A stretch of 64,000 bases of DNA from Planctomycetaceae bacterium (GTDB lineage Bacteria > Planctomycetota > Planctomycetia > Planctomycetales > Planctomycetaceae). Positions 35,109 through 49,839 of this stretch are shown here, piece by piece; within the stretch, counting starts at the first letter, position 1; each line of letters opens with the position of its first letter. Under the pieces are notes generated by a model, which saw only the letters and a program-made list of their open reading frames with translations, was not told the origin of the DNA and searched no databases. The position numbers and the translations under genes are program-made. The stretch lies in NCBI GenBank assembly GCA_002726205.1, contig PBSL01000041.1, forward strand, positions 1 to 64,000, read 5' to 3'.

Positions 35109-37574
35109 TTACTTGTCGTCGCGCTGCGAATCCGGTGTTGTTGGACGCGTTCGACCCGCCGTCCCGGCACGGCGTGGATTTTCGCCGGTTGCCGCTGGCG
35201 CGATGAACCGGTCGCTGGCGACGACAAGCCGGATCAGCTCCTGGAACTTCCCATCCCGCTGTCGCGCCAGGCCGATCAACTTGTCGATCCCAGGTCGGTC
35301 GGCGGCGGCGACGGGTGCTCCGGTGGCGTAGACCAGCAGTTTTTCGACCAGGCAACCGAGAAACCGGTCCCGGTCCTTGAGCAACAGTTTCTTCAGGTCG
35401 AGGATGCCGTCGAGTGGTTGGCCGTTTTCGAGTGTCCCGGACGTATCGATCGGTCGTCGGTTGTCATAGCGCGGCCGCCACTGTCCGGTGGGATCAAAGT
35501 GTTCGAGTGCGAATCCCAGCGGGTCGATTTTCTGGTGGCAGCCCAAACAGCCCGCGTTGGTCCGGTGTTTCGCCAGTTGTTCGCGAATCGTGGTGGCACC
35601 ACGGGTATCGGGTTCCAGGTCGGGAACGCCCTGTGGAGGCGGTGCCGCGGATTCGCCCATCAGGTTGTTGAGGATCCAGACACCGCGGACGACCGGCGAG
35701 GTCACGGTGCCATTCGACGTCAGTGTCAGCACACTGGCGTGTCCCAGCACGCCACCCCGATTTTCCGCCGGATCGAGCAGGACCCGCCGGAACTCGGACC
35801 CCTCGACATTCTTGATCCCGTAGTGCTGGGCCAGTCTCTGGTTGAGGAAGGTGAAGTCGGCGTCGAGGAAATGGGCAACGTCGAGGTCGTGCTTGAGGAT
35901 GTGCGAGAAGAACCGGCGTGTTTCCTCCCGCATCGCCGTCTCGAGATTTCCTCGATAGTAATTCCGGAACCGCTTGGGGTCGGGAGGCATGCTGCCGAGT
36001 TGATCCAGCCCGAGCCACTGTCCGGTGAAGTTGTTGACGAACGCCTCGCAGCGAGGGTCTCCCAGCAGCCGTGTCATCTGTGCGGCGCGGACCGTCCCCC
36101 GGTGCAGTTGGCCTTTCGCGGCGAGTTCGAGCAACTCCGCATCGGGCATGCTGCTCCAGAGAAAATACGACAGCCGGTTGGCGATGGCGAATTCATCGAG
36201 CGGTCCCCCGCGGGTTCTCAGGTAGAGAAAACCCGGTGAACACAGCACGGCCTGCAACGACGACTTGATTGCCTGTTCGAACGTGTCGCCCCGGTCCCTG
36301 AGACGGTCATAGAGTGCCAGGAAGGGTTGGACCTCGGTCGAGGTCACCGGCCGACGGAATGCCCGGGTGGTGAAATTCTCCAGGGTCTGTTCGACGTAGT
36401 GGTGATCCTCGGAAGCTACCCGGCGGCCGAAGATTTTTTCGTGTCCCGGCAGGGGCCAGCGATCGTAGAGTGGTCCTTCGACTTCCATCCAGAACACGCG
36501 GAGTTGCGGGCCATCGTAGTTGGCCATGATCGGGGCCCGGTTCTGCCGGGCCTCCCGGCCAAACCGCTTCTTGACCAGGTTCTTGAAAGAACCACGGTGC
36601 CCGTTGGGGAAAGAGACGATCGGCACCTGGCCGGCTTCAAAGCGAGCCCGGACGGTAAACGTCTGTGGCTGGTTGTCGGGCACGTCGAAGGTCCCGATCG
36701 TTCGTCGAGAACCTGCCTCGGCCGTCTTGCCCGGCGGTCCCACGCGAATCAGCACCCGCACTGGTCCATCGATCGCGCCGACGCCCTTGAAGTCGGAGTG
36801 CAGGGCCGTTGCGTGGACCCGGATCAGGTATTCTCCCTGGGCCAGCCGCGGGGCGTCTTTCGATCCGGGTCGAAACTGTTGAAACCCGTCACCGGTGGCG
36901 GTGACGATCTTGACGTATTCATCGGTGCGGTAGACCGGTCGCGTTGCCTCGCGCGGAAGAATCCGATAGACGCGGACTTTCGGTTGAGGACCGAACTTTA
37001 CCGCGCGGTCGATCGCGTCTGCCGAGGCCCGCAGGGCCTCGCGGAGCAGGGCCGGCGAGAAGACCAGTGCCGCGCCGACAGTGTCGAACCCCTCGGCCGT
37101 GTCGTCGGCCGGGAAACCCGCGGCCGGATCATAGGAGGTGTCGATCAGTAGCAGGTCACGGAGCGTGTTGTTGTACTCGCGTCGGTTCAGCCGTCTCACG
37201 GCATCGTTCCGCTCGGCTTTTAACCCGTCGAAGGCCTCCAGCCGCCCGGTGATCCAGCGAGTCATCTCGCGGAGGGCTGCCGGGTCGGGCCGGGGCCGTT
37301 TGCGGGGAGGCATCTTTCCGGTGGTGAGCTGGTCAAGAATCGCCCGCCACGTCCGGGCGGTCGCCGCTTGCGAGAAGTCTGGCCCCAGCGTGTCGAAACG
37401 ATGTTTCCCGGATTGCTTCTTCGCGCCGTGACAGGCCAGGCAGTGTTGTGACAGGAAACGGCTGACCTTCTTGGGCGGAACCGCTTCGGCGGCCGACGCG
37501 TTGCTTGCCAGGAGCGTGCACAACAGCGCCACTGCGAGGAAAACGTGCGAAGCGATCTGTCGTCGCTGTCTCAT
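35109..37574 (-). CDS. Planctomycete cytochrome-like DUF1587/1592/1588/1595/1585 protein
   Basis: An 821-residue exported protein. Signal peptide to about residue 29; a CXXCH (CLACHGAKKQSG, 45-49) in the N-terminal cytochrome-like domain; DUF1587 (RLNRREYNNTLRDLL, about 140); DUF1595 and DUF1592 (FAIANRLSYFLWSSMPD, DFTFLNQRLAQHYGI); DUF1588 with a second CXXCH (CLGCHQKIDPLGFALEHFD), and DUF1585 at the C-terminus. This architecture pairs with DUF1552 proteins, and the DUF1552 gene is immediately upstream (11 bases). ATG 37574 is chosen since it yields a proper signal peptide; longer frames do not. Confidence 0.92.
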   Translation of the reverse strand: MRQRRQIASHVFLAVALLCTLLASNASAAEAVPPKKVSRFLSQHCLACHGAKKQSGKHRFDTLGPDFSQAATARTWRAILDQLTTGKMPPRKRPRPDPAALREMTRWITGRLEAFDGLKAERNDAVRRLNRREYNNTLRDLLLIDTSYDPAAGFPADDTAEGFDTVGAALVFSPALLREALRASADAIDRAVKFGPQPKVRVYRILPREATRPVYRTDEYVKIVTATGDGFQQFRPGSKDAPRLAQGEYLIRVHATALHSDFKGVGAIDGPVRVLIRVGPPGKTAEAGSRRTIGTFDVPDNQPQTFTVRARFEAGQVPIVSFPNGHRGSFKNLVKKRFGREARQNRAPIMANYDGPQLRVFWMEVEGPLYDRWPLPGHEKIFGRRVASEDHHYVEQTLENFTTRAFRRPVTSTEVQPFLALYDRLRDRGDTFEQAIKSSLQAVLCSPGFLYLRTRGGPLDEFAIANRLSYFLWSSMPDAELLELAAKGQLHRGTVRAAQMTRLLGDPRCEAFVNNFTGQWLGLDQLGSMPPDPKRFRNYYRGNLETAMREETRRFFSHILKHDLDVAHFLDADFTFLNQRLAQHYGIKNVEGSEFRRVLLDPAENRGGVLGHASVLTLTSNGTVTSPVVRGVWILNNLMGESAAPPPQGVPDLEPDTRGATTIREQLAKHRTNAGCLGCHQKIDPLGFALEHFDPTGQWRPRYDNRRPIDTSGTLENGQPLDGILDLKKLLLKDRDRFLGCLVEKLLVYATGAPVAAADRPGIDKLIGLARQRDGKFQELIRLVVASDRFIAPAATGENPRRAGTAGRTRPTTPDSQRDDK

Positions 37575-37585
37575 GGGACCGGCTC

Positions 37586-38854
37586 TCACGCGAAACCCGT
37601 CAGCGTTCCCGTCGCGGTGCTGAAGGAATCGGTTTCGATTCCCAGTTGCTGCAGCATGCTGACGTAGAGGTTGCACAGCGGGATCTTGCCGGGTGGGAAC
37701 TTCAGCGAACGGCCGTGCTGGAAACCACCGCCGGCGACCAGGACCGGCAGGTTGCGGTTGGAGTGACTGCTGGCATTTCCCATGCCGCTGCCGAAGTAGA
37801 CGATCGTGTTATCCAGCAGCGTGCCGTCACCCTCGGAAACCGCCGCCAACTGGTCCAGGAACCGTGCCAGCGCCCGCGTGTATTCGATCTCGATCAACTT
37901 CAACTGCTTGATCTTTGCGGGATCCTGGCCGTGGTGACTCAGCGAGTGATATCCGTCCCCGACGCCGTCGATCTGGAAGCGGCCGTTTCCGCCGGGAATG
38001 TGCAGCGAGGCGATGCGGGTCGAGTCTGTCTGCAGGGCAAGGGTCATCAAGTCAAACATCAGCTTCATGATGGCCAGTCGTTTGTCCTGGCCATTGTTGG
38101 ATTTGTTTGTCCCGGGAAATTCCTGCTGCGGCTTGGGCTGGTTGAGCCAGTGCCCGGCCCGTTTCAGACGCCGTTCGGTTTCGTTGATCGCGTTGAGATA
38201 CTCGCGGAAGCGATGGCGGTCGTTGTGTCCGAGTGTCCGGTCGATCTGCCGTGCACTGGCCAGGACCGCGTCGAGGATACTGCCGCGGGTGTCCAGTTCA
38301 CGGCGTTGCCGGGACTTTTCGTCGGTCGAGGTCTGTCGGAACAGGTGGTCAAAGAGGACCTGGGGATTGCCGATCCCTCGCAACTTCACACCGTAACGGT
38401 TCCAGGACCAGCTGCTGCCACCGCCGACGTCAAGCGACAGCGACGCGAACCGGGTTTCGGAACCGATCCGGTCGGCGGCGTACTGGTCGAGCGAATACAT
38501 GCCGCCGCGCTGAAAGCTGAAACGCACGCCGGTCAGGAAGGCCTGCACACCCTTGTGGCCGCCCCCCACACCGTGGTCGAGTCCCTCGACGACCGACCAG
38601 TGACGTCGGCTGTTCTTCAACGGGGTCAGCAACTCGGTCAACGCGAAGTCGTTCCCGGTTTTCGCGGGGAAAAATGCCGGCGCGTGGACACCGTAGGACG
38701 AGCCGATGCAGACCAGCCGACGTGGCGACTGTCGGGGTGATGGTTCCGCAGCGGTTGTCCGGGGACAGGTCGCCTCCAACAGCGGCAGCGCCAGCGTGAC
38801 GCCGGTGCCGCGAAGAAACGTGCGGCGGTCGAGTTTCCAGGTCGGTGACGGCAT
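37586..38854 (-). CDS. DUF1552 Tat-exported protein
   Basis: A 422-residue DUF1552 protein. Tat-like leader: LDRRTFLRGTGVTLALPLLEA. DUF1552 signatures include RLVCIGSSYGVHAPAFFP, SVVEGLDHGVGGGHKG, SLDQYAADRIGSETRF, and DNTIVYFGSGMGNASSHSNRNLPVLVAGGGF. It is the first gene of a minus-strand operon with the DUF1592 cytochrome, pectate lyase-like, and GH/M55 genes. The family has no proven function but resembles DUF1501. Confidence 0.93.
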   Translation of the reverse strand: MPSPTWKLDRRTFLRGTGVTLALPLLEATCPRTTAAEPSPRQSPRRLVCIGSSYGVHAPAFFPAKTGNDFALTELLTPLKNSRRHWSVVEGLDHGVGGGHKGVQAFLTGVRFSFQRGGMYSLDQYAADRIGSETRFASLSLDVGGGSSWSWNRYGVKLRGIGNPQVLFDHLFRQTSTDEKSRQRRELDTRGSILDAVLASARQIDRTLGHNDRHRFREYLNAINETERRLKRAGHWLNQPKPQQEFPGTNKSNNGQDKRLAIMKLMFDLMTLALQTDSTRIASLHIPGGNGRFQIDGVGDGYHSLSHHGQDPAKIKQLKLIEIEYTRALARFLDQLAAVSEGDGTLLDNTIVYFGSGMGNASSHSNRNLPVLVAGGGFQHGRSLKFPPGKIPLCNLYVSMLQQLGIETDSFSTATGTLTGFA

Positions 38855-45533: not shown

Positions 45534-46877
45534 TTAGACGACCGGCTGGTCTGATGCCACCAGGCCCCGTGGGTCCAGGAACATCCAGGCCACGGCTGCC
45601 ACGGCGTAGATGCCGACAAACAGCAGAAGAACCGGTTCCCATTGGCCGGTTGAAACGGCCATCCAGGCGACGGCCATCGGGCAGACCGCGGCGCCCATGT
45701 TGCCCACCATGTTCATCACGCCGTAGACCTGCTCGGTATGTTCACCCGCCTTGTCGATCGCCGTGGCACTCGAGGGAGGACCGGCCAGCGTCCCGCAGAA
45801 GGTTCCCAGCGAAATCAACGCCACGGCACCGACGGCGTCCGCGACGAAATAGGCCGCTCCAATGCAGGCGGCACACGTGGCCAGTGCCAGCACGGAGGTC
45901 AGTTGCCGGCTGATCCGTTTGCTGCCGGTTTTTTTCCAGAGAAAATCAACCAGCAGGCCACTGGCGACACAGCCGACCACGACCGACAGCAATGGCAGGG
46001 CCGTCAACAGGCCCGATTCACCGGTTGTCACGTTCCGTGTCTCCCGCAGGTACTTGGGGAACCACGTGGAAAAGAAAATGTAACCGGCTCCACGGCAAAA
46101 CTGCTGTGCGTAAAGTGGCAGCATGCCCGGGTGAACCGCGGTGACGATCCAGGATGTTCCCGCCGAACGGGAAGGCCGTTCGGGGCTCGAACGTCGAATC
46201 AACTCGCGTTCGACCGTGTTCACTCCCGGGTGTTCCTCGGGCTGGTTTCGGAACCAGAGATAAAACCAGGCGACAAAGGGCAGGCCGGGCAGGGCGAACA
46301 GGACAAAAACCCATTGCCAGGGGATGGCCGGCGTCGTCAGCCAGCCGGTCGTGATGCCCTCGATGGCATAGCCGGTGACGGCCGATCCCAGTGCCCCGCC
46401 GATTGACATGAAACTGCCCATCAGTCCAACCGCCAGGGCCCAGCGGGTGGCGGGCATCCAGTGACGGATCATTCCTGCCGAGCAGGGAAAGATCCCGGCC
46501 TGGGCAATCCCAAAACCCACCTGCAGTGCGATCAGCGACCAGGCCCCGCCGACGAAATAGAAGGCGGCACAAAAAAACGACCAGATCGTGGCGTAGATCG
46601 ACAGCATGGCGCGGGGGCCAAAGTGGTTTCCCAGCCATCCGGCCGGGACTTGCGCCAGCGAGTAGGCCAGGAAAAAAGCGGTCATGGCCCAGCCCATCTG
46701 GATCTCGTCGATTTCCAGGTCCGCCTGCACATGCTCGGACGCCACGCCCAGGCAGTTGCGGCCCATGTAGGCAATCGTGGCCGCCAGGCAGATGGCGGTC
46801 ATGACCACGTAACGCTTCCGGCTGGGCAGTTGCCGTGGATCGGGTGAAGGGAATTCCTCCACTTGCGGGTTGGCCAT
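45534..46877 (-). CDS. MFS transporter (anion:cation symporter type)
   Basis: A 447-residue protein with about 12 membrane helices. MFS signature GWLGNHFGPRAMLSIYAT (loop 2-3), and MGRNCLGVAS early in helix 1, suggest the ACS family that includes hexuronate/tartrate carriers. The ATG at 46877 overlaps the stop of the upstream unknown gene by one base (TGATG), so the two are translationally coupled. Direction (import or export) cannot be told, but context with a biosynthetic-looking fusion suggests export. Confidence 0.9.
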   Translation of the reverse strand: MANPQVEEFPSPDPRQLPSRKRYVVMTAICLAATIAYMGRNCLGVASEHVQADLEIDEIQMGWAMTAFFLAYSLAQVPAGWLGNHFGPRAMLSIYATIWSFFCAAFYFVGGAWSLIALQVGFGIAQAGIFPCSAGMIRHWMPATRWALAVGLMGSFMSIGGALGSAVTGYAIEGITTGWLTTPAIPWQWVFVLFALPGLPFVAWFYLWFRNQPEEHPGVNTVERELIRRSSPERPSRSAGTSWIVTAVHPGMLPLYAQQFCRGAGYIFFSTWFPKYLRETRNVTTGESGLLTALPLLSVVVGCVASGLLVDFLWKKTGSKRISRQLTSVLALATCAACIGAAYFVADAVGAVALISLGTFCGTLAGPPSSATAIDKAGEHTEQVYGVMNMVGNMGAAVCPMAVAWMAVSTGQWEPVLLLFVGIYAVAAVAWMFLDPRGLVASDQPVV

Positions 46878-47824
46878 CAAGATGTTCCCGGCTGGTCGGT
46901 TTCAAGTTTTGCGGAGCGATCGTCGGGCGTCACAGCCGGTTCGGATTTCGTGGTCGCCCGCTTCCTGTTGGCCAGGTACGCGTGGAGCGATTCGACGGCC
47001 AGTCCGTGCAGCATCAGTCGGTGTGCGGCTCCCAGGACCGATTCGGGCACGATCGGATGCCGGTTGTTGACCAGTCCCAGGAACCTGTGATCACCGATCA
47101 GTTGCGTGGCGTAGATCGAGATCGTCTCGTCCAGTTGCAGGGAATTGCAGGCACGCCAGAAGTCACTGTCGGTCAGCAGCAACTGGTACAGCGGCGTGTA
47201 GATCTCGATGGCCGACTCGAGATCCAGGAAATTAAACCACCCGTTGGGCATTTCCTCGATGGGGAATGCCCCGTCGGTGATACAACTGAAATCCAGTTCG
47301 TCGATGGGCTGCAGGTCCAGCCCCTGCTCGTTGAGTTGCCTGTTGATGTTGATGATGAAGTTGTAGATGTTCAGGTCGTGTTGCAGGAACACATTGTCCC
47401 TGAGGTCGGCCAGTTTCAGCGGTTGCAGCGGTGTCAACTCGATGTCGACCCCTCGGGTGTTGCTGGCCACGAACGCCAGCACTTCCGAGGCGATGTGGAA
47501 GTGCCGCATGATCAGCCAGTTGGCCTGGGGCGAAACGAACCACTTCATTCCCACGTGGATCAGGCGGTGCAGCAGCCACGACGAGGCCGACTTGGGCAGG
47601 ATCGTCTTGGGGATCGTCAACAGCATCAGCGTCAGGTGAGATGCCGGCCTGATGAAGGGGAGGAGGAACTGTCGCGAGCGCGAGGCCACGTCGCGGAGGA
47701 AGGCGGCCTTGGACTCCCTGTTGAGCGGGATGCTCGCGTCGACGTACAACGCGAACCACGGGTCGGGATTGAGGGGATCGTGCTGCGTGTCCTCGAGGTG
47801 CTGGATGGCGTTGGATCGACTCAT
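46877..47824 (-). CDS. Unrecognised protein, helical, co-operonic with KAS III-oxidase fusion
   Basis: A 315-residue protein I do not recognise. It has no signal peptide and is mainly helical. Two hydrophobic segments (around 58-75 and 80-95) are moderate. Histidine- and acid-rich segments include MRHFHIASEVLAFVASN, FLQHDLNIYNF, and ELDFSCITDGAF. These could bind metal, but this is only inference. The C-terminus is a polar tail. It starts one base after the KAS III fusion stop and ends overlapping the MFS start by one base, so all three are coupled. Confidence 0.75.
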   Translation of the reverse strand: MSRSNAIQHLEDTQHDPLNPDPWFALYVDASIPLNRESKAAFLRDVASRSRQFLLPFIRPASHLTLMLLTIPKTILPKSASSWLLHRLIHVGMKWFVSPQANWLIMRHFHIASEVLAFVASNTRGVDIELTPLQPLKLADLRDNVFLQHDLNIYNFIININRQLNEQGLDLQPIDELDFSCITDGAFPIEEMPNGWFNFLDLESAIEIYTPLYQLLLTDSDFWRACNSLQLDETISIYATQLIGDHRFLGLVNNRHPIVPESVLGAAHRLMLHGLAVESLHAYLANRKRATTKSEPAVTPDDRSAKLETDQPGTS

Positions 47825-47825
47825 G

Positions 47826-49706
47826 TCAGAAGTTCCCCAGTTCTTCCAGTTGCAGCAGATACAGCCGCGCGGTGACCTTGGCTGTCTTGACCACGTTCTC
47901 GACCACCTCGGGTGTCAGTATGCCTGATTGGACTGCCTGGTCCAGTCGCTGGAAGTGGATGTCATCGCTCTCGGAGTGGTACGTCAGGAAGGTCACCTGC
48001 GAGTCATCCAGGTCGAGTTGCTCCTTGATCATCACCGCCCACCGCCGGGCCACCCGGCGGCCCAGGCCCTCGATGATGAACATGGCGCCGATCAGGTCAA
48101 ATGGATTCTCTCGGCTTGCTCGCCCGAGAACGAATTCCGACAGGGCGGTGCTGCCGATGTTTTTTTCCCCCGACTGGATATCCTCCAGGCGACCGCCAAC
48201 CGAAACATAGTTCTGTTCGAGCATCTCGAAGTCACGATGCTCGTCGCTGGAATGACCGATGAATGCCGAGCGGATCGGGAAGTTCTCGGTGGTCAGGTTC
48301 GAGGCCGCACGGGAAATCCATCGCGAACCGTCGATGACCTGTTGGCGGAGATTGAAGAGCAGTTCCTGGTAGTCCTTCAGCCGCAACTTCCCCTCCCACA
48401 TCTTCCGGACGATCGGTACCTGATTGAGCCTGTTCTCGAAGTCGGTCCAGACGTGCGACAACTGGCGAACCAGGGATTCCTCGAGCTCCGAACCGCTGGT
48501 CTTGATGTCCGGCGGGATGATTTCCTGGTCCGCCGCGGCCGGCCGGGCCGGGATGGAAACCGGTTCGGCCGGCGTGCCGACGACGGTGAATTGCATGTAG
48601 CCAAACAGGAAACGGCCGCTCTCGGGCACGATGCAAAAGAGTGTTTGCCCGGGTTCGAGTTGGCCGCTGTAGAAAAGCTCCTCGATCATCAGGAAGGGCG
48701 AAGCCGATCCGACGTTGCCCTTGGTGTAGAGATTGGTGAAGACACGATCGAGGGGGATTCTCAGGCCGCCACGGCAAAACAGTTCGTAGGCCTGTTCGCG
48801 AAAGACGTGAGACGAGTAGTGGGTCACGTACCAGTCGATATCCCGGGGATTCAGCAGGCCCTCGTCGACGAGGTCAAAGACGCCGTTGACCGTCAACCGC
48901 ACGACGTCGTCGAGCATCTGGATGTTCTGGCGAAGATTGATGGCGCCGGCTGCCGTGGCCGACTGGCAGTCGTCGTAATCCAGCCAGCCGCGTACCGGGT
49001 TCGCGGCCACCTCGTCCTTGGTCCCGACATACATGCAGGGTGGAAACTGGCTGGCGTAGGACTTGAGCTTGATCCAGTCCAGGCGAAGCGAGAGCCCGTG
49101 ATCGGCCGGTTGGTCCTGCAACAGGAAGGCGCCGGCACCATCGGAGAGCATCCAGCGGAGAAACTCCGTTTCGAAGGGCAACGTCTTCTTGTCACCGAAT
49201 CCCTGGGCCTCGTAGCGACTGGCCTTGAACAGCCGGCTGGGTAACTCGCTGGCGACGCAGGCTGCGGCTGTTACCCGTCCCGATTCGACCATGGCGGCCG
49301 CGTGACGCAGGGCGGCCACCCCGCTGGCACAGATTCCATGCAGTGTGGCAATTTCACACGGTGGCATGTCCAGTTCGCCATGGACCATGCTGGCAAATCC
49401 GGGCAGCGGCGTGTCGCCCTGCGACGTGGCTGCCACCAGCAGTTGGACCTCGTCCAGGTCGCAGTCGCTGCGATCGACGGCCGTCCTGATGGCCTCGGAT
49501 GCCATCCCCGCATTGGAGATCGTGGTTTGCTGGTTGCGGTCAATTGCGTAGTGTCGCGAGCGGATTCCGTTTTGACGCAACACCCGTTCGCGGGCTCGCG
49601 AATCCTTGCCGCCGATTCGACCGAGATAATCCTCCATGTCATCATTGGAGATGGGTTCGCCGGGAAGAAACACCCCGGCAGAAGTGACGTAGCATGCTGG
49701 AGACAC
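47826..49706 (-). CDS. KAS III-like condensing enzyme fused to heme-oxygenase-like di-iron oxidase domain
   Basis: About 626 residues. N-domain (1-400) is a 3-oxoacyl-ACP synthase III-like fold: GVFLPGEPISNDDME, Cys126 in GICASGVAAL, His296 in VTHYSSHVF, Asn331 in GNVGSASPF, the Cys-His-Asn triad of the family. After a Pro/Ala linker, residues about 430-626 are an all-helical domain: HSSDEHRDFEML (E489), E546 in IIEGLG, and HSESDDIH (H577, D581, H584), which matches the HxxxDxxH third-helix motif of heme-oxygenase-like di-iron oxidases such as CADD. GTG 49706 preceded by AGGGA is chosen; GTG 49775 is the alternative. Confidence 0.8.
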   Translation of the reverse strand: MSPACYVTSAGVFLPGEPISNDDMEDYLGRIGGKDSRARERVLRQNGIRSRHYAIDRNQQTTISNAGMASEAIRTAVDRSDCDLDEVQLLVAATSQGDTPLPGFASMVHGELDMPPCEIATLHGICASGVAALRHAAAMVESGRVTAAACVASELPSRLFKASRYEAQGFGDKKTLPFETEFLRWMLSDGAGAFLLQDQPADHGLSLRLDWIKLKSYASQFPPCMYVGTKDEVAANPVRGWLDYDDCQSATAAGAINLRQNIQMLDDVVRLTVNGVFDLVDEGLLNPRDIDWYVTHYSSHVFREQAYELFCRGGLRIPLDRVFTNLYTKGNVGSASPFLMIEELFYSGQLEPGQTLFCIVPESGRFLFGYMQFTVVGTPAEPVSIPARPAAADQEIIPPDIKTSGSELEESLVRQLSHVWTDFENRLNQVPIVRKMWEGKLRLKDYQELLFNLRQQVIDGSRWISRAASNLTTENFPIRSAFIGHSSDEHRDFEMLEQNYVSVGGRLEDIQSGEKNIGSTALSEFVLGRASRENPFDLIGAMFIIEGLGRRVARRWAVMIKEQLDLDDSQVTFLTYHSESDDIHFQRLDQAVQSGILTPEVVENVVKTAKVTARLYLLQLEELGNF

Positions 49707-49839
49707 CCGGCGTTCCCTGGCTTCGAGGAAAAAACTGACAATCGTTTCGGCGGGAAATCTCCGAAGATCACACACCCGAATCCTGATTCTACGATGGATT
49801 GTCGCCGGAATGGCCCGATTCCTGGTTTGGGGCCAGTAA

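Follow-up and report, generated by a model that had tools for sequence, protein, structure and literature searches.

A ketosynthase fused to a di-iron oxidase-like domain and accompanied by a DUF6999 protein: a candidate ring-lipid biosynthesis module in Planctomycetota and other bacteria

The locus described here lies in a 64,000-nucleotide stretch of contig PBSL01000041.1 (referred to throughout as the window, meaning the whole of the DNA analysed) from a Planctomycetaceae bacterium whose assembly, GCA_002726205.1, comprises 4.86 Mb in 76 contigs. Three genes follow one another on the minus strand (Table 1), encoding respectively a fusion of a ketosynthase with a heme-oxygenase-like di-iron domain, a DUF6999 protein and an MFS carrier. 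A single base (47825) separates the first gene from the second, while the second and third share one (46877); this spacing had been reported in the initial annotation, the coordinates and reading frames of which also proved correct on re-checking. The fusion could alternatively start at a GTG further upstream, at 49775, which would give 649 aa, but its homologues begin near 49706. The linker between the two domains varies in length among homologues, and in the predicted model the stretch 381–393 is of low confidence. No acyl-carrier gene is present in the window unit. Downstream of the fusion, at window positions 36000-38854, lies a pair of genes (HXXSHH/DUF1552 plus DUF1592-type) that also occurs downstream of a related fusion (L009:4223-7728; homologous loci are given L numbers), which is probably a coincidence of common families.

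Table 1 Features of the locus (positions in the window) and, in the last row, of an accessory gene at related loci
Feature	Position	Strand	Extent	Basis or remarks
Fusion gene	49706->47826	minus	626 aa from GTG	
Ketosynthase domain, StlD/DarB-like	48579..49706	minus	fusion residues 1-376	catalytic Cys126, His296, Asn331
Linker	48501..48578	minus	fusion residues ~377-402	model pLDDT and alignment gaps
Heme-oxygenase-like di-iron domain (predicted) and stop	47826..48500	minus	fusion residues 403-626	PF14518, 3dde, residue invariance
DUF6999 protein, conserved partner	47824..46877	minus	315 aa	PF22523, linkage, distant alignment
MFS carrier	46877..45534	minus	447 aa from ATG at 46877	PF07690
Membrane protein at related loci	L003:12748-13332; L009:3497-4069; L010:12783-13340; L019:9877-10434; L025:14433-14990		~186 aa	

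The N-terminal domain is a thiolase-fold ketosynthase. It had been described as KAS III-like with a Cys126-His296-Asn331 triad, and comparison with FabH and OleA had been proposed; the class was right, and all three residues sit on the catalytic positions of StlD (His296 corresponding to StlD His302, the residue mutated in 5gk2) and are invariant in the aligned fusions, but the description was too general, since the domain is far nearer to StlD than to FabH or OleA both in sequence and in structure. The closest solved relative by sequence is StlD (PDB 5gk0; E 1e-83, 37% identity, full-length alignment), the best match to FabH being at about 1e-15 and that to OleA at about 3e-3, while comparison of the predicted structure with StlD gives Z 45.4 (rmsd 2.5 Å, 367 residues aligned), as against Z of about 34–35 for FabH, OleA and PqsD. 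Curated models give 402 bits for NF005293 (StlD/DarB subfamily; E 2e-120, cut-off 450 bits), 348 bits for NF053539 (DarB; cut-off 550 bits) and at most 75 bits for those of FabH type. The domain is thus a close StlD/DarB relative that falls outside formal family membership by curated cut-offs, and for this reason its product may differ from that of the family. In short, it resembles StlD and DarB in fold, in its Cys-His-Asn residues and in full-length alignment, and differs in carrying an oxidase, in scoring below both cut-offs and in having no detected DarA homologue in company (see below). These relatives make 2,5-dialkyl-cyclohexane-1,3-diones that are normally aromatised by DarA (DarB being named a cyclase and DarA an aromatase; PMC3949708), so that a dialkyl-cyclohexanedione ring, and not a chain of FabH or OleA type, is the intermediate to be expected here. 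The closest unfused ketosynthase (48% identity) is that of Paenibacillus dokdonensis (L020:10013-11164), beside which neither DUF6999 nor an oxidase was seen.

The C-terminal domain matches PF14518 with 35.4 bits (cut-off 28.9), as do 14 of the 15 members tested, and a profile built from 15 sequences of the domain finds just one solved structure, 3dde (E 4e-8), a heme-oxygenase-fold protein annotated as TENA/THI-4; the TENA family PF03070 gave no match in a profile search of the source genome. The model is all-helical across this domain (in a structure search with the full-length model, ketosynthases took up the hits), and the candidate ligands are E489, D492, E546, H577, D581 and H584, of which E489, E546 and the H577/D581/H584 group are carried on predicted helices 473–502, 535–551 and 568–592 respectively. 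Five of these (E489, E546, H577, D581 and H584) had been singled out already, and they are invariant in all 17 aligned fusions, as are D492, H485 and H490; these 17 share 57–70% identity, were drawn from 84,980 species genomes and include near-identical MAGs (L003–L005; L010 and L018). The split Pseudoalteromonas protein described below agrees with them at the ligand columns, and the helix-1 DEHRDF and helix-3 HxxxDxxH motifs recur in fusions that are more distant or were found later (L047, L048, L049 and L054). The likeness of the domain to CADD is one of motif spacing.

In the initial annotation the partner of E489 in the first metal pair was left as either H490 or D492. Alignment with 3dde sets E489 opposite E84 and D492 opposite H87 and continues without gaps through to E546, which favours D492; if helix 473–502 is regular, residues 485, 489 and 492 would lie on one face and 490 off it. 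The pair is therefore best read, from these alignments, as E489-x2-D492. The residue that is usually His would then be Asp in every homologue read, whereas stand-alone Acidobacteriota proteins of the heme-oxygenase-like di-iron oxidase (HDO) superfamily mostly have His at or near this position. One of the closest of these by profile, L077, has H-x3-E-x2-H where the fusion has H485-x3-E489-x2-D492, in each case 54 residues before the helix-2 Glu; the alignment program put gaps at this site, so that equating D492 with the His position is a best reading, not a proof. The Asp suggests a 2His/4carboxylate site, although H485 or H490 could stand in as a third His ligand, and with D492 in place of the usual His the chemistry of the oxidase may be altered. 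The HDO ligand sets that have been described are 3H/3C and 3H/4C (PMC13108848). The domain is thus like the HDOs (UndA, CADD, SznF; PF14518) in its helix-1 Glu, helix-2 Glu, HxxxDxxH motif and spacings, and unlike them in having D492 for the helix-1 His and a tethered ketosynthase.

The 315-residue protein had been put forward, without a family name, as a possible third enzyme, with a profile search as the way to check it. Such a search identifies it as DUF6999 (PF22523; 387 bits, cut-off 27), and by its linkage to the fusion it behaves as a dedicated pathway partner. Seven residues (R107, H108, H149, D150, D232, H273 and E278, forming the pattern R-H / H-D / D / H-x4-E) are kept in 15 DUF6999 sequences down to 16% identity, together with P56, A225 and L284, and in the predicted model (pLDDT 79, pTM 0.78) the conserved residues are placed on four different helices; the set is suggestive of a metal-binding or catalytic site. 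A fold search (Foldseek) returned nothing below E 1, a profile search against the PDB gave no match, and no mention of the family was found in openly licensed literature. A second structure comparison pointed to GPCR-like helix bundles, but with a best Z of 4.8 and mixed hits this was set aside as background. Elsewhere, a 40-residue piece of DUF6999 (L057, G308:C9:214439-214558), possibly a remnant, has no ketosynthase or oxidase match in the surrounding 17 kb.

Fusion and DUF6999 are also linked at related loci. In all, 20 further fusions were found; they come from Planctomycetota, Verrucomicrobiota and Acidobacteriota, and near-identical MAGs account for several of them. Those reached by way of the DUF6999 family are from Acidobacteriota and Planctomycetota, and several matches of that search repeat loci already found. 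Cultured carriers include Limnoglobus roseus and Bryocella elongata. Wherever the contig is long enough to show it, the fusion is accompanied by DUF6999, which adjoins it in most cases; a desaturase gene is inserted between the two in L016 and L017, while DUF6999 is cut by the contig end in L008 and the contig of L018 stops before it. At L006:11881-12823 DUF6999 lies in two frames beside an intact fusion (a frameshift or an assembly error). On plasmid pTHAF3_a of Pseudoalteromonas sp. THAF3 the parts of the unit are separate genes, in the order membrane protein, ketosynthase, “iron-containing redox enzyme” and DUF6999-like, and counting this split version the unit spans four bacterial phyla. 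A survey of neighbourhoods for the trio seen in the window shows that the pair recurs and that the MFS gene stands beside no other fusion examined, so that the conserved unit consists of two genes, not three. The initial annotation would have counted homologues lacking the residues and the partner genes against its reading; in fact the residues are invariant and DUF6999 is linked wherever this could be tested.

Other genes accompany the unit less regularly. A fatty-acid desaturase lies inside or beside it in seven loci (L003–L006, L012, L016 and L017), and a His-rich membrane protein of about 186 aa occurs in L003–L005, L009, L010, L019 and L025. The latter has as invariants C29H30R31, E36, H47, H81E82xxA85H86, E102xH104xH106 and E172E173. 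It matches no Pfam family above cut-off, and the members tested have no NCBIfam match; it may be a membrane metal oxygenase, so far undescribed, that belongs with the fusion/DUF6999 unit. It was rejected as a core part, being missing from 12 of 13 fusion genomes, the source genome included.

The distribution of DUF6999 is patchy. Among 170 genomes of the order to which the window belongs, 7 have a match, 6 of them above cut-off; for Acidobacteriota the figure is 5 of 297 and for Verrucomicrobiota 1 of 195. Among 14 control genomes only Caulobacter vibrioides has a match, and it also matches PF14518 and the StlD/DarB model (the latter match may be to FabH). A tree built from the ketosynthase domains places the window gene together with one from Verrucomicrobiota (95/86 support) and not with other Planctomycetota, which suggests lateral transfer; the same tree gives no branching order for the deeper lineages (L049, L025, L047/L048, L020, L026 and the Bacteroidota DarB group). 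The three most distant DUF6999 relatives (L051, L052 and L053) have StlD/DarB-like ketosynthases next to them or close by, and no oxidase was seen there (L051 being cut by a contig end). Ketosynthase plus DUF6999 thus seems to be the older association, to which the oxidase would have been added as one of several oxygenases. The planctomycete locus L053 (6816-12620) contains an StlD/DarB-like ketosynthase, a flavin monooxygenase, a P450 and a DUF6999-like gene, followed by a convergent fatty-acid hydroxylase, and is a further candidate for an oxidised-ring cluster, here with no di-iron domain.

In Chitinophaga pinensis darA and darB jointly yield a dialkylresorcinol (PMC3992019). A Bacteroidota locus (L021) shows the published order darA-B-D-E: its flavodoxin-like gene is followed by DarB, then by a small unknown and a BtrH-like gene. 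The darA-like gene of this locus, recognised from its place in the order and from a weak match to flavodoxin, was taken as a proxy for DarA. Homologues of this proxy were found in both DarB control genomes but in none of 13 fusion genomes, and genes of DarD/E type do not occur among the neighbours conserved with the fusion. The unit thus resembles the DarA-DarB systems of flexirubin-type pigments in pairing a cyclising ketosynthase with a constant partner that would be expected to work on the ring, and differs from them in that the partner is DUF6999 together with the oxidase domain, not a flavodoxin-like DarA. A different aromatase could be encoded elsewhere in the genome. The simplest reading of the missing DarA proxy is nevertheless that the tethered di-iron domain carries out the oxidation of the ring, DUF6999 being needed either way.

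From the domains, residues, conservation, linkage and missing DarA homologues we infer the following scheme of substrates, reaction, metal content and product. By homology, the ketosynthase would join a 3-oxoacyl and an alpha,beta-unsaturated acyl thioester (Claisen, Michael) to give a 2,5-dialkyl-cyclohexane-1,3-dione, possibly still carboxylated; the tethered di-iron domain would then oxidise this ring with O2 in place of the DarA aromatase, most likely by aromatising dehydrogenation or by hydroxylation, and so yield a dialkylresorcinol or something quinone-like. DUF6999 would perhaps be another metal-dependent enzyme, or else serve as the cyclase/decarboxylase, and the desaturases or His-rich membrane protein beside some homologues might adjust the chains. 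That fusion and DUF6999 form a compact ring-lipid biosynthesis module, in which the di-iron domain replaces DarA, is put forward tentatively as the reading we favour, stopping a little short of calling it probable. It had been proposed earlier that the fusion makes and then oxidises an acyl product; the two-domain condensing/oxidase-like enzyme, its conserved residues and the link to DUF6999 bear this out in part, but the MFS protein as exporter is not supported and the expected intermediate is a ring instead of a chain.

The main rival to ring oxidation is desaturation of a chain before condensation, the di-iron domain producing from an acyl thioester the Michael partner of the ketosynthase and the product being an ordinary dialkyl-cyclohexanedione or resorcinol. 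A fusion would channel the enoyl product to the ketosynthase, and accessory desaturases do occur beside some homologues. Classical DarB pathways, however, obtain their enoyl thioesters from fatty-acid synthesis, and if the same holds here a dedicated oxidase is not needed; the missing DarA homologues are also left unexplained, and we regard this scheme as rather unlikely. The ketosynthase might instead be a non-cyclising head-to-head enzyme (OleA- or PpyS-like), with the oxidase cleaving or modifying a linear or pyrone product to give a ketone, alkene or hydroxylated pyrone. OleA does belong to the same thiolase-fold superfamily (Z ~34), and UndA-type HDOs cleave C-C bonds (PMC13108848), but with StlD ahead of both OleA and FabH (Z 45 against ~34; E 1e-83 for StlD) this seems improbable. 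It is more doubtful still that the di-iron domain is no two-metal oxidase at all, and is a mononuclear iron domain or a non-redox one that binds or positions the product. Such a role would fit D492 at the helix-1 His position of 3dde and of stand-alone relatives such as L077, and one mononuclear HDO variant is known (PMC13108848); that variant, however, lost helix-3 ligands and not the helix-1 His, ferritin-like di-iron enzymes work with 2His/4carboxylate sites (PMC13108848 and general knowledge), and the invariance of E546 and H577-x3-D581-x2-H584 over large distances argues for metal chemistry. Finally, the three-gene operon of the initial annotation, which would make, oxidise and (through the MFS carrier) export a product, is very unlikely. 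The one-base gap and one-base overlap imply co-translation in the source genome, but nothing matching the MFS gene occurs in the loci of fusion relatives examined, and its best NCBIfam model, TIGR00893 (221 bits, short of the cut-off of 395), describes the D-galactonate (organic-anion) transporter subfamily, that is, a sugar-acid uptake carrier.

Functions are known for about a dozen HDOs out of a predicted total of at least 10,000, and the 2026 review of the superfamily ties no HDO to a ketosynthase and makes no mention of ketosynthases, polyketides or fused enzymes (PMC13108848). No description of the fusion architecture was found in the open literature, which here means openly licensed papers, so that it may be described elsewhere; nor was there any account of an “iron-containing redox enzyme” with a ketosynthase gene cluster, searches by family name giving papers that were unrelated by title. 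Both domains are recognisable, and what calls for explanation is how they are combined, the Asp that replaces His and the DUF6999 partner. A bolder claim, which we regard as unlikely, is that Planctomycetota, Verrucomicrobiota and Acidobacteriota make dialkyl-aromatic or quinone-like lipids by a new route that depends on O2, in which a cyclising ketosynthase and a 2His/4carboxylate heme-oxygenase-like di-iron oxidase work within one chain, and that DUF6999 is a new class of metal-dependent partner enzyme, found with StlD/DarB-like ketosynthases even where the oxidase is not. The fusion and its travelling partner gene point to an undescribed oxidised ring-lipid pathway. If the proposed function is right, the partner domain within the fusion would name the substrate of the oxidase, there would be an alternative to aromatisation by DarA, DUF6999 would acquire its first functional setting, and a lipid class of phyla that are hard to study would become testable by simple expression.
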